A stretch of DNA of 64,000 bases from an uncultured bacterium (lineage in GTDB: Bacteria > Verrucomicrobiota > Kiritimatiellia > RFP12 > CAIWXQ01), in assembly GCA_903916675.1 (NCBI GenBank), contig CAIWXQ010000020.1, positions 1 through 64,000 of the forward strand, given 5' to 3'. Below are positions 1,243 through 58,405 of the stretch, piece by piece. The position numbers and the translations under genes were made by a program. Every line of letters starts with the position of its first letter. Positions within the stretch are counted from its first letter, which is position 1. The notes below the pieces were generated by a model. It worked only from the letters and a program-made list of their open reading frames with translations. It did not search any database and was not told the origin of the DNA.

Positions 1243-1268
1243 TTCACTGTTCACTGTTCACTGTTCAC
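1243..1268. repeat. Heptamer microrepeat TTCACTG upstream of polA
   Basis: Three exact tandem copies of TTCACTG (1243-1249, 1250-1256, 1257-1263) plus a partial copy TTCAC. The array fills the space immediately before polA, where no Shine-Dalgarno sequence is visible. It belongs to the 7-8 nt microrepeat class seen elsewhere in this window. Confidence 0.85.
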
Positions 1269-1278
1269 GGTTTACTCT
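1250..1278 (+). promoter_or_regulatory. Candidate leaderless promoter of polA
   Basis: TTCACT (1250-1255), a 17-nt spacer, then TACTCT (1273-1278), which ends 6 nt before the polA ATG at 1285. The -35-like hexamer is part of the heptamer repeat. Transcription would start at or next to the start codon. The hexamers are weak matches to consensus. Confidence 0.35.
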
Positions 1279-4127: not shown

Positions 4128-4155
4128 TTGGTGTCGGCTGCCGGGTTTTTATAAT
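4128..4155 (+). promoter_or_regulatory. Candidate promoter of the GH172-fucI unit
   Basis: TTGGTG (4128-4133), 16-nt spacer, perfect TATAAT (4150-4155). It lies about 75 nt before the DUF2961 start codon. Confidence 0.5.
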
Positions 4156-4180
4156 CTGGAATCTGCAATCAGGAATCTAA
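4153..4180. repeat. Heptamer microrepeat AATCTGG-type
   Basis: Four consecutive 7-nt units: AATCTGG, AATCTGC, AATCAGG, AATCTAA. The array overlaps the end of the TATAAT box and lies in the leader of the following gene. A related AATCTGG-AATCTTA sequence lies before ribE near 35452. Confidence 0.7.
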
Positions 4181-33627: not shown

Positions 33628-33715
33628 TCATTGGTCAGTAGTCATCAGCCATTGGCGGCCACCAGACAACCACTGGCTCGGCGCCCCCAATGACCAATGA
33701 CCAATGACCAATGAC
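33628..33715. repeat. Heptamer inverted repeat between ribH and nusB
   Basis: Four exact tandem CCAATGA units (33687-33714) are preceded, 30-60 nt upstream, by their complement in GTCATTGGTCAGTAGTCATC and CCATTGG (33628-33656). The two halves can fold into a long stem. The same heptamer forms the variable arm of the FMN riboswitch. Confidence 0.85.
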
Positions 33716-39963: not shown

Positions 39964-39992
39964 TGTGTAGCAGAACAAGGGGCGAGGGGCAA
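39964..39992 (-). promoter_or_regulatory. Candidate leaderless promoter of ruvB
   Basis: On the minus strand TTGCCC (39992-39987), 17-nt spacer, TACACA (39969-39964), 6 nt, then ATG. Confidence 0.35.
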
Positions 39993-40201: not shown

Positions 40202-40230
40202 TTCCCCAAGCGCGCCGAGTGCGCTAACCT
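40202..40230 (+). promoter_or_regulatory. Candidate leaderless promoter of queC
   Basis: TTCCCC (40202-40207), 17-nt spacer, TAACCT (40225-40230), 6 nt, then ATG 40237. Both hexamers are weak; the spacing is what makes it notable. Confidence 0.3.
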
Positions 40231-40236
40231 GTGGCC

Positions 40237-50781: not shown

Positions 50782-51684
50782 ATGACGAGTGCACAACTAC
50801 AGGGAATCGGCTTCGGGTTGGGGACGGCAGTCTGCCAGTCCGTGTACTACCTGTTCACGCGGCGATTTGTGCTTTGTTCCGGCCAGACGCCGCTGCAGTT
50901 GTTGGTGGTCTCGCACGTGCTCATGGGTTTGTTTTCCGCAGTACTGCTGCTGGTGCTGCGCCCGCTGTGGCTGCCGTCGTGGGGCGACGTTGCCCTGATT
51001 CTGGCGGGCTCCATCAGCTATCTGGCGGGTCAGCTTGCGCTGGCCCGGGTGCTGCGGGACGAGTCGTCATCCCGCATTACGCCGCTGCTGGGATCCAAAA
51101 TCATCGTGCTGGCCCTTTTGAGCGCCCTCTGCCTGCAGCAGCACCTCCTTCCTGCGCAATGGCTGGCGGTCCTGCTCAGCGCCGGCGCGGCCTGGCTGTT
51201 GAACGAAAGTGGCGGGCGCATGCCGGCGACCCTGCTGGTGCTGGTGTCGGCTGCGGTTCTCGGCTACTGCCTGTCGGACCTGTCCGTCGGGGTAATCCTG
51301 CAACAACTGCCGGCGGACGGGCCTCCGCGGGGGTTGCTGGTTGCGGCAATGTTCTATCTGATGAGCGGTATTGTCGTGCTGCCGTTTGTGTTCCGGCGCG
51401 AGGCACACGTGGGCCGGATCTGGGCGCTGGCCTTGCCGTGTGCCCTGACGTGGTTCGCCGCCATGTGCCTGCTCTGCGCCTGCTTTGCGTGCATCGGCGT
51501 GGTGTTCGGCAACATCGTGCAGGCCACACGCGGCTTGATCGCCGTTGTTCTTGGTTGGGCTGTTGCCCGCATCGGGTTTACCCATCTCGAGGTGCATGTT
51601 TCGCGCCGTGTCTTCTGGCGACGCATCGCGGGTGCCGTGCTGATGCTGCTGGCTGTCGCGCTCTACCTCTGCGCGCGGGCTTGA
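50782..51684 (+). CDS. EamA-type (DMT superfamily) transporter
   Basis: A 300-residue membrane protein with ten predicted helices arranged as two EamA-like halves (first about 10-140, second about 150-295), typical for drug/metabolite exporters. The first half holds SISYLAGQLALARVL and SRITPLLGSKIIVLALLSAL; the second ends in RRVFWRRIAGAVLMLLAVALYL. It starts 21 nt after parC. The substrate is unknown. Confidence 0.82.
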   Translation: MTSAQLQGIGFGLGTAVCQSVYYLFTRRFVLCSGQTPLQLLVVSHVLMGLFSAVLLLVLRPLWLPSWGDVALILAGSISYLAGQLALARVLRDESSSRITPLLGSKIIVLALLSALCLQQHLLPAQWLAVLLSAGAAWLLNESGGRMPATLLVLVSAAVLGYCLSDLSVGVILQQLPADGPPRGLLVAAMFYLMSGIVVLPFVFRREAHVGRIWALALPCALTWFAAMCLLCACFACIGVVFGNIVQATRGLIAVVLGWAVARIGFTHLEVHVSRRVFWRRIAGAVLMLLAVALYLCARA

Positions 51685-51709
51685 GCGCCGCGCGCGGGAT
51701 GGTTATAGT
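51681..51709 (+). promoter_or_regulatory. Leaderless promoter of the DUF493 gene
   Basis: TTGAGC (51681-51686), 17-nt spacer, TATAGT (51704-51709), then only 6 nt to ATG 51716. Expected start of transcription falls on the start codon. Confidence 0.6.
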
Positions 51710-51715
51710 GGCTCC

Positions 51716-52018
51716 ATGCAGCCGCATGCCAGCAATCCCGGGAGCCACGCAGACGGCTGGGGCACGCACGATCCGGCTGCCATCTACCCGGCGGAGTGCC
51801 ATTTTCGCGTGATCGTGGCAGGGGACTTTGCCGCCGAGGCGGAGTTGCGGCAGGCGCTGGCCGCGAGCGAGGTCACATCGCCGCTGGCGTCCGCACGCCA
51901 TTCGGCGGGCGGCAGATTCCATTCACTGCAGGTGACGGTGCGCGTGAAGGATCGCGCGGAACTGGTGCGGCTCGACCGCGACCTGCGCGCCGTGGCCGGT
52001 GTGCGGATGGTGTTGTAG
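51716..52018 (+). CDS. DUF493 (YbeD-like) family protein
   Basis: A 100-residue cytoplasmic protein. After a variable N-terminus, YPAECHFRVIVAGD, SARHSAGGRFHSLQVTVRVKDRAELVRLDRDLRAVAGVRMVL matches the ACT-like fold of the DUF493/YbeD family, small proteins of unknown (possibly regulatory) role. No ribosome-binding site is present; the promoter overlaps the start as described above. Confidence 0.82.
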   Translation: MQPHASNPGSHADGWGTHDPAAIYPAECHFRVIVAGDFAAEAELRQALAASEVTSPLASARHSAGGRFHSLQVTVRVKDRAELVRLDRDLRAVAGVRMVL

Positions 52019-56564: not shown

Positions 56565-57926
56565 ATGGCAAACAGCGTTCTGGATCGTCTGTACGCGCGG
56601 CGGCGCTTCGGCATGCGGCCGGGGCTGGCGAGCATGCGCGCACTCCTGGCGCGACTGGACAACCCGGAGGCCGGTCTGGCGGCCGTGCATGTGGCAGGGA
56701 CGAATGGCAAGGGGTCGGTGACAGCCCTGATGACGGAGGTTCTGTCTGCCGCCGGATTGCGTACGGGGCGCTACACCTCACCGCACCTGCTCCAGTTCTG
56801 CGAACGATTCTGGCTCGATGATCGGCCGGCGGACGAAGCCGCACTGGACGCGGCCACGGGCGAGGTCGAGACCGCGGCGCTGGCCGTGGAGCGCGAGAGC
56901 GGCGAGGCGCCGACTTTCTTCGAGTGCGCTACGGCCATCGCGTTCCTGCTTTTTCGGCGTGCCGGAATCCGGCTGGCGGTGGTCGAAACCGGCCTGGGTG
57001 GCCGGCTCGACGCCACTAACGTGCTGACACCGCTGGTTTCCGTGATCACGCGTATCGGGCTCGACCACTGTGAGCAGCTCGGCAACACCCTCGCGGCGAT
57101 CGCGGCGGAGAAGGCTGGTATCCTCAAGCCGGGGCGGCCGGTGGTCTGCGGCGCCATGCCGGACGAGGCGCGGGGCGTGGTCCGCCGTATGGCGCAGGAT
57201 CTGGGGTGCCGGTGGATCGATGCAGCCGAGGAGGTGAACGTCGCTTCCGTGAGTGTGTCGCTGGACGGTCTGACGGCGCGCGTGTCAACCTCGTCGCGCG
57301 ACCTGGGCAAGGTGCGGTTGCCTCTGGCGGGCGTCTACCAGGCCGAGAACCTGGCCACGGCCGTGGCTGCGCTCGAGGCCACGGCCGAGGAGCTGCACAT
57401 TTCATTGCCGGACGAAGCCTTCCGTGCCGGATTGGCGCGCGTCTGCTGGCCGGCGCGCTTTCAGCTTGCGGTGCGCGAGCCGCCGGTGATCGTGGATGGT
57501 GCGCACAACCCTGACGGCGCCGCGGCGCTACGCGAGGCGCTGCGAAGGCTGAAGGTTCACGGTCCCATGGCACTGGTGGCGGGATTCTGCGACGACAAGG
57601 ACACCACGGGGTTTCTCCGCGTGCTGGCGTCCGGCATGAGGCGCGCCTGGGCGGTGCCGGTGCCATCGCCGCGCTCGCTGCCGGCGGCTGCCACGGCTGA
57701 GCGGATGCGAGCCGCCGGCATTGCGTCTGTCGAGGCCGCCGAAGTCCCAGCCGCGCTGGCAGCCGCGCAGGCGTGGGCGCGGGCGGAAGGCGGGCTAGTG
57801 GTAGTTTGTGGCTCGCTTTTCCTGGCTGGCGAGGCGCTGCAGCAGCTGCAGGCCTACCCTTGGTCGCTGGCCGCGGCCGGCCGCGCGCCGGATCCGAACG
57901 AGCAGTTGCAGCCAACAAAGGCATGA
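56565..57926 (+). CDS. folC: Folylpolyglutamate / dihydrofolate synthase
   Basis: A 453-residue Mur-ligase-fold enzyme adding glutamates to folates (and glutamate to dihydropteroate). It shows the P-loop HVAGTNGKGSV, TSPHLLQFCERF, ETGLGGRLDATN, SVITRIGLDHCEQLG and the C-domain VIVDGAHNPDGA. ATG 56565 is preceded by AGGTGG; an upstream TTG at 56532 is less likely. It complements folD in folate metabolism. Confidence 0.95.
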   Translation: MANSVLDRLYARRRFGMRPGLASMRALLARLDNPEAGLAAVHVAGTNGKGSVTALMTEVLSAAGLRTGRYTSPHLLQFCERFWLDDRPADEAALDAATGEVETAALAVERESGEAPTFFECATAIAFLLFRRAGIRLAVVETGLGGRLDATNVLTPLVSVITRIGLDHCEQLGNTLAAIAAEKAGILKPGRPVVCGAMPDEARGVVRRMAQDLGCRWIDAAEEVNVASVSVSLDGLTARVSTSSRDLGKVRLPLAGVYQAENLATAVAALEATAEELHISLPDEAFRAGLARVCWPARFQLAVREPPVIVDGAHNPDGAAALREALRRLKVHGPMALVAGFCDDKDTTGFLRVLASGMRRAWAVPVPSPRSLPAAATAERMRAAGIASVEAAEVPAALAAAQAWARAEGGLVVVCGSLFLAGEALQQLQAYPWSLAAAGRAPDPNEQLQPTKA

Positions 57927-57952
57927 CTGGGCAGAGTGATCTGCGCTAGAGT
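57923..57952 (+). promoter_or_regulatory. Candidate leaderless promoter of the TSUP gene
   Basis: ATGACT (57923-57928), 18-nt spacer, TAGAGT (57947-57952), 6 nt, then ATG 57959. Confidence 0.4.
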
Positions 57953-57958
57953 AGTCGC

Positions 57959-58405
57959 ATGTCGTTGGACCTTGCCAGTTCCTGGTGGTTGCTGGCGCTG
58001 CTCGGCGTGGCAGCCGGCGCGTTGAGCGGCAGTCTGGGCATCGGCAGCGGGATCATCGTGGTGCCGGCGCTGGTGCTGCTGCTGGGGTGCCCGCAAAAGT
58101 CCGCCCAGGGTATGGCGCTGGCGTTGATGGTCCCCATGGCGGCACTGGGCGTGTGGCAGTACCTCCGCACGCCGGGCGTGCAGATGAATTGGGGGGCTGT
58201 GGCGCTGCTGACACTGGGCGCTGCGGTGGGCGTGATGGCCGGCACGCGGCTGATGGCGCGCGTGCCGAACCTCTGGTTGCAGCGGGCCTTTGCAGTGTTT
58301 TTGCTGATTGTGGCCGCGCGCATGCTCTTGAGCGACGGCGCACGGCGCGCCGCGCCGGGCGCTTCGTCGGCGGCAGCGGAAAAGCAAACGGACAGGAGCA
58401 AATGA
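57959..58405 (+). CDS. Half-size TauE/SafE (TSUP) family permease
   Basis: A 148-residue membrane protein corresponding to one of the two repeats of the usual 250-residue TauE/SafE exporters: LLALLGVAAGALSGSLGIGSGIIVVPALVLLLG is the family motif with its Gly-rich reentrant loop, then three more helices. It may act as a homodimer. TSUP proteins move sulfite, sulfonates or organic anions. Its stop overlaps the next gene's ATG (ATGA, 58402-58405), so it is coupled to a binding protein. Confidence 0.82.
   Translation: MSLDLASSWWLLALLGVAAGALSGSLGIGSGIIVVPALVLLLGCPQKSAQGMALALMVPMAALGVWQYLRTPGVQMNWGAVALLTLGAAVGVMAGTRLMARVPNLWLQRAFAVFLLIVAARMLLSDGARRAAPGASSAAAEKQTDRSK

Follow-up and report, generated by a model that had tools for sequence, protein, structure and literature searches.

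The window analysed here is a stretch of 64,000 nucleotides in contig C20 of a Kiritimatiellae MAG (64% GC; assembly of 2.48 Mb, 87% complete); the nearest relatives of its polA gene are found in Kiritimatiellae and other Verrucomicrobiota MAGs. It contains a DUF493 gene (PF04359), predicted to be leaderless, whose ATG follows a -10-like box at a distance of 6 nt. Five other genes of the window are arranged similarly. The features are as follows.

1250..1255, +, -35-like TTCACT of polA, 17-nt spacer, within a heptamer repeat
1273..1278, +, -10 box TACTCT of polA (ATG 1285), downstream of the (TTCACTG)n repeat
28378..28383, -, -10-like TATGAT of the transglutaminase gene (ATG 28371), with a weak -35 and an uncertain start codon
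39964..39969, -, -10-like TACACA of ruvB (ATG 39957), which is TANNNA and not TANNNT
39987..39992, -, -35-like TTGCCC of ruvB, 17-nt spacer
40202..40207, +, -35-like TTCCCC of queC, 17-nt spacer
40225..40230, +, -10 box TAACCT of queC (ATG 40237)
51681..51686, +, -35-like TTGAGC of the DUF493 gene, 17-nt spacer
51704..51709, +, -10 box TATAGT of the DUF493 gene, 6 nt before ATG 51716, mixture-model posterior 1.00
51716..52018, +, DUF493 gene
57924..57929, +, weak -35-like TGACTG of the TSUP gene, 17-nt spacer
57947..57952, +, -10 box TAGAGT of the half-length TauE/TSUP gene (ATG 57959)

A preliminary description of the window had named these six boxes, and all of them were read at the coordinates it gave, 6 nt before the ATG. 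Five have the form TANNNT that it had assigned to the set; the ruvB box departs from this form in its last letter, with TTGCCC exactly 17 nt upstream. Two of the start codons have competitors: the start of the transglutaminase gene chosen by the signal-free caller (see below) is 28188 rather than 28371, and queC has an alternative in-frame GTG at 40231, against which stands the box before the homologous ATG of its same-genus orthologue (see below). At the DUF493 gene, the -35 element overlaps, at 51681-51684, with the stop codon of the upstream EamA-family gene. The product of the TSUP gene (57959-58405) covers just the C-terminal half of the TauE profile (positions 129-237), and the gene is followed by a solute-binding protein gene with an overlap of 4 nt.

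The window also contains intergenic tandem repeats of period 7 (1243-1276, 4153-4178 and 33687-33715). Similar repeats lie in two other loci (L091:5022-5142 and L161:1-73), and the repeat units (TTCACTG, CCAATGA, AATCTGG and CCCGCAT) are unrelated to each other. Such repeats were not found in the samples of E. coli and of G062, a relative in the same phylum.

Genome sample and gene calling

The genome-wide tests used a sample of 1.04 Mb, or 42% of the incomplete MAG, and the final figures exclude five sampled loci that consist wholly of N. Genes were called with a home-made caller based on a 3-periodic Markov model, in which starts are picked on coding potential only; the choice of starts is therefore blind to the box. 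For G022, a relative with 70% GC, genes were called with a codon-position criterion.

In addition to counting exact matches to TANNNT, we used two further procedures. The first is a two-box (-35 and -10) mixture model, which was run on 746 genes with a posterior cut-off of > 0.9 and compared with 14 decoy offsets. The second makes no use of the gene caller, and counts TTG-17/18-TANNNT before any ATG that begins an open frame of 80 codons or more.

Position of the box relative to the start codon

Among the 611 ATG starts of the sample, TANNNT begins at -12 in 17 cases and at -13 in 12 cases, that is, in 29 cases against 10 expected, the mean at other offsets being 5.0 (joint p 7.6e-7). The genome-wide enrichment that the preliminary description had proposed as a check is present, and mostly at starts without a Shine-Dalgarno (SD) sequence. 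Before the 139 GTG and TTG starts of the same sample, no TANNNT was found at -12 or -13. When all in-frame ATGs near starts were scanned, the motif occurred 22 times at -12 and 19 times at -13, against 8.5; before out-of-frame ATGs it occurred 6 and 9 times, and the peak was absent. The box is therefore tied to the in-frame ATG.

The spacing had been described as constantly 6 nt, which is too narrow: the box precedes the ATG by 6 or 7 nt, and the gap of 7 is nearly as common as that of 6. In contrast, the gap-8 and gap-9 boxes that had been counted as close variants are not enriched here (3 and 6 matches, respectively, against 5 expected), although such gaps are present in relatives.

The excess of exact motifs corresponds to about 3% of the genes of the sample, and the mixture model puts the surplus at about 38 genes (about 5%). 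Thus, a promoter appears to be placed for starting the mRNA on the first letter of the start codon in some 3-5% of genes, roughly one in twenty. This is well below the Deinococcus control (see below), and the word "frequent" in the preliminary description was too strong. Since the excess of exact motifs is small, about a third of the individual boxes at -12 and -13 may be chance matches. Our confidence is high for the class of box genes and moderate for any one of them. In this respect the window is typical of the genome, containing 6 of the 59 genes selected by the mixture model.

Promoter features of the box genes

The -35-like element that had been noted 17-18 nt upstream of several boxes is a property of the class. 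All 17 ATG genes with a box at -12 have T at -35, and TTG lies 16-18 nt upstream of 15 of the 29 boxes at -12 or -13, against 53 of 230 TANNNT matches elsewhere (p 0.003). In the caller-free count, TTG-N20/21-TANNNT-N6/7-ATG occurs 22 times (10 with gap 6 and 12 with gap 7) against 4.7 expected, the background being 2.37 per gap (p 7e-9). The mixture model learned a -35 element of T76 T79 G73 - C65 and a -10 element of TA...T, and assigned a posterior above 0.9 to 59 of the 746 genes, compared with 21.4 at the decoy offsets (sd 7.2, maximum 34). The box thus appears to be part of a sigma-70-type promoter, with TTG at 17-18 nt and, in G022, a TG extension.

The SD core AGGAG is found at 43% of ATG starts in this genome, compared with 12% of internal ATGs; at the former figure, classification as an SD-poor genome of the Bacteroidota type was rejected. 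The box genes largely avoid the SD core, which occurs in only 1 of 28 of them; in terms of the sample, it accompanies 3% of box genes and 45% of other genes, in agreement with the earlier proposal that two initiation modes coexist. Furthermore, 26 of 28 box genes are heads of transcription units, against 187 of 283 SD genes (p 0.002), and 27 of 28 have a pyrimidine at -1.

Orthologues and related genomes

The arrangement is shared by the orthologues of ruvB, polA, queC and the DUF493 gene in many, but not all, relatives. TANNNT begins between -15 and -11 in 11 of 27 order-level ruvB orthologues (control windows 0.8, maximum 4), and in 10 of these 27 orthologues the near-consensus, TATAAT-type form TATA[ACG]T was found (control 0). 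For polA, the box is present in 20 of 76 orthologues (control 3.8, maximum 9) and TATA[ACG]T in 14 of 76 (control 0.8). A box and an SD sequence occur together in 1 of the 76 polA orthologues and in none of the 27 ruvB orthologues. The queC gene of a genome of the same genus has CTTG...TATGAT at -13 of the homologous ATG, and a TANNNT box is retained at -13 or -14 by the DUF493 orthologues of three genomes (G001, G007 and G029). On the other hand, the polA orthologue of the same genus has an SD site in place of the box, so genes switch between the modes. The transglutaminase orthologues gave no usable alignment of starts, although one of them (L289) has TATAAT at -12. In three class-level ruvB orthologues (L223, L226 and L228), CTTG...TANNNT stands at a distance of 9 nt from the ATG, corresponding to a predicted leader of 2-3 nt.

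At the genome level, G022 (family f3 of the same order) has 17 of 251 starts with the box against 3.3, in the form TG-N-TANNNT. No significant TANNNT peak was found in G007 (family f2), and the trait is therefore not uniform within the order. In the phylum relative G062, the same test gave 13 of 210 where 4.5 were expected, and the peak was broader.

Comparison with known systems

Leaderless genes preceded by TANNNT near -12 are a long-known type (PMC3160421; PMC12340547), and GeneMarkS-2 predicts leaderless genes in 21.6% of bacterial species (PMC9581028). With the pipeline used here, plasmid MP1 of D. radiodurans gave 10 of 75 ATG genes with the box at -12 or -13, against 0.8 expected, and 100 kb of E. 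coli K-12 gave no peak.

The "TA-led" genes of Actinobacteria and Deinococcus-Thermus (Zheng et al. 2011, PMC3160421) resemble the present class in lacking an SD sequence and in carrying TANNNT some 12 bp ahead of the start, in a high-GC genome in which SD genes coexist; however, they make up about 20% and 40% of genes in those groups, compared with about 3-5% here. PVC groups do not appear among those that the authors list as having leaderless genes. The "-10-motif" genes of D. radiodurans share TANNNT and its position, and the same peak was obtained here from MP1. In D. radiodurans the motif has been shown experimentally to drive transcription (PMC12340547); the class described here differs in its clear TTG -35 element and its lower abundance. 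Akkermansia muciniphila belongs to the same phylum, Verrucomicrobiota, although to a different class, and about 10% of its transcription starts are leaderless, lying on the start codon, by Cappable-seq (PMC4782308); these starts were measured, whereas ours are predicted. The excess in G062 is comparable to that of A. muciniphila but broader. In the literature as far as it was accessible, we found no transcription-start data for Kiritimatiellae and no report that treats promoters and start sites of transcription in this class; the supplements of the wide surveys may already list a Kiritimatiella genome. Because TANNNT leaderless genes have long been described, Akkermansia is known to have leaderless starts and no report on Kiritimatiellae was found, the present result is an extension of a known mode to another lineage, Kiritimatiellae.

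Functions of the box genes

Box genes with Pfam matches include polA, ruvB, a Y-family polymerase gene, a LexA-like gene, AlkD, tRNA nucleotidyltransferase, a GluQ-like synthetase, a MiaB-like enzyme and queC, where the finer product names are a reading of the Pfam matches. When we sorted the matches ourselves, DNA repair or tRNA modification accounted for 11 of 31 leaderless genes and about 4 of 28 SD genes, the latter coming from 30 randomly chosen SD transcription-unit heads; the difference is not significant. Repair and tRNA-modification genes may be over-represented among the leaderless genes. Zheng et al. (PMC3160421) reported that leaderless sets lean toward information-processing genes.

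The LexA-like gene and the Y-family (dinB-like) polymerase gene, both predicted to be leaderless, diverge from each other with 59 nt between their starts (L174:1874-1932). The palindrome AGAGTAAAAACTCT between them is a candidate LexA operator that overlaps both promoters. This LexA-type palindrome occurs once in the sample, and for that reason no regulon was built.

Interpretation

We consider it very probable that the box genes are transcribed from sigma-70-type promoters that give leaderless mRNAs, the placement of the boxes being computed, and the transcription start and the translation from a 5' AUG being inferred from it. The promoter would be of the housekeeping type, with a consensus of about CTTGNC-N17/18-TANNNT and with its -10 box 6 or 7 nt before the in-frame ATG. 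Because of this distance, RNA polymerase would start on the A of the ATG or within a base or so of it, and the ribosome would load the leaderless mRNA via the 5'-terminal AUG and the initiator tRNA. The genes led by an AGGAG core would use the other initiation mode of the same genome. A start on the A itself had been proposed before, and the fixed offset, the -35 element, the exclusion of SD sequences, the unit-head position, the in-frame specificity and the orthologues all favour it, with a precision of about a base for the predicted start.

That the set arose by chance, having been picked by hand among the many starts of one window, is hardly conceivable. It is true that the starts were chosen by eye, that ruvB does not fit TANNNT and that the gap-8 and gap-9 variants lack genome-wide support; however, the peak on independent, signal-free starts has a p below 1e-6, and both the caller-free count (p 7e-9) and the conservation in orthologues point the same way. 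Chance is refuted for the class, while individual sites can be chance matches. It is also very improbable that TANNNT is an AT-rich translation element, such as a site for ribosomal protein S1, rather than a promoter. For other groups, a bias toward A and T around -10 to -20 has been interpreted in this way (PMC5397173), but such an element leaves unexplained the TTG 17-18 nt upstream, the TG-extended -10 box of family f3 and the position at unit heads.

A somewhat better case, although still an unlikely one, can be made for ordinary promoters that are not strictly leaderless, either because the leader is very short (1-5 nt) or because the true start codon lies further downstream. Start calls are imprecise, which leaves room for the latter; the near-equal use of gaps 6 and 7, and the gaps of 8-9 nt in orthologues, which would leave a leader of 1-3 nt, fit the former. 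This reading, however, does not agree well with a peak that is locked to the in-frame ATG and missing at out-of-frame ATGs and at GTG/TTG, nor with the almost invariable pyrimidine just before the A. Moreover, leaders of a few nucleotides are usually classed with leaderless mRNAs anyway.

We propose, tentatively and with rather less than even confidence, that the predicted leaderless initiation has long served the whole class Kiritimatiellae as a second mode, which some lineages have retained across families at genes such as ruvB and polA, and others have replaced by SD sites. A search of the MAG for the 16S rRNA gene, which would carry the anti-SD sequence, did not find it. In practical terms, leaderless starts are misplaced by gene finders built around SD sites alone. 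The orthologue set of ruvB, polA and the DUF493 gene is ready for following switches between leaderless and SD initiation, and if the mode is indeed old and class-wide, the phylum would record how genes move between the two modes.
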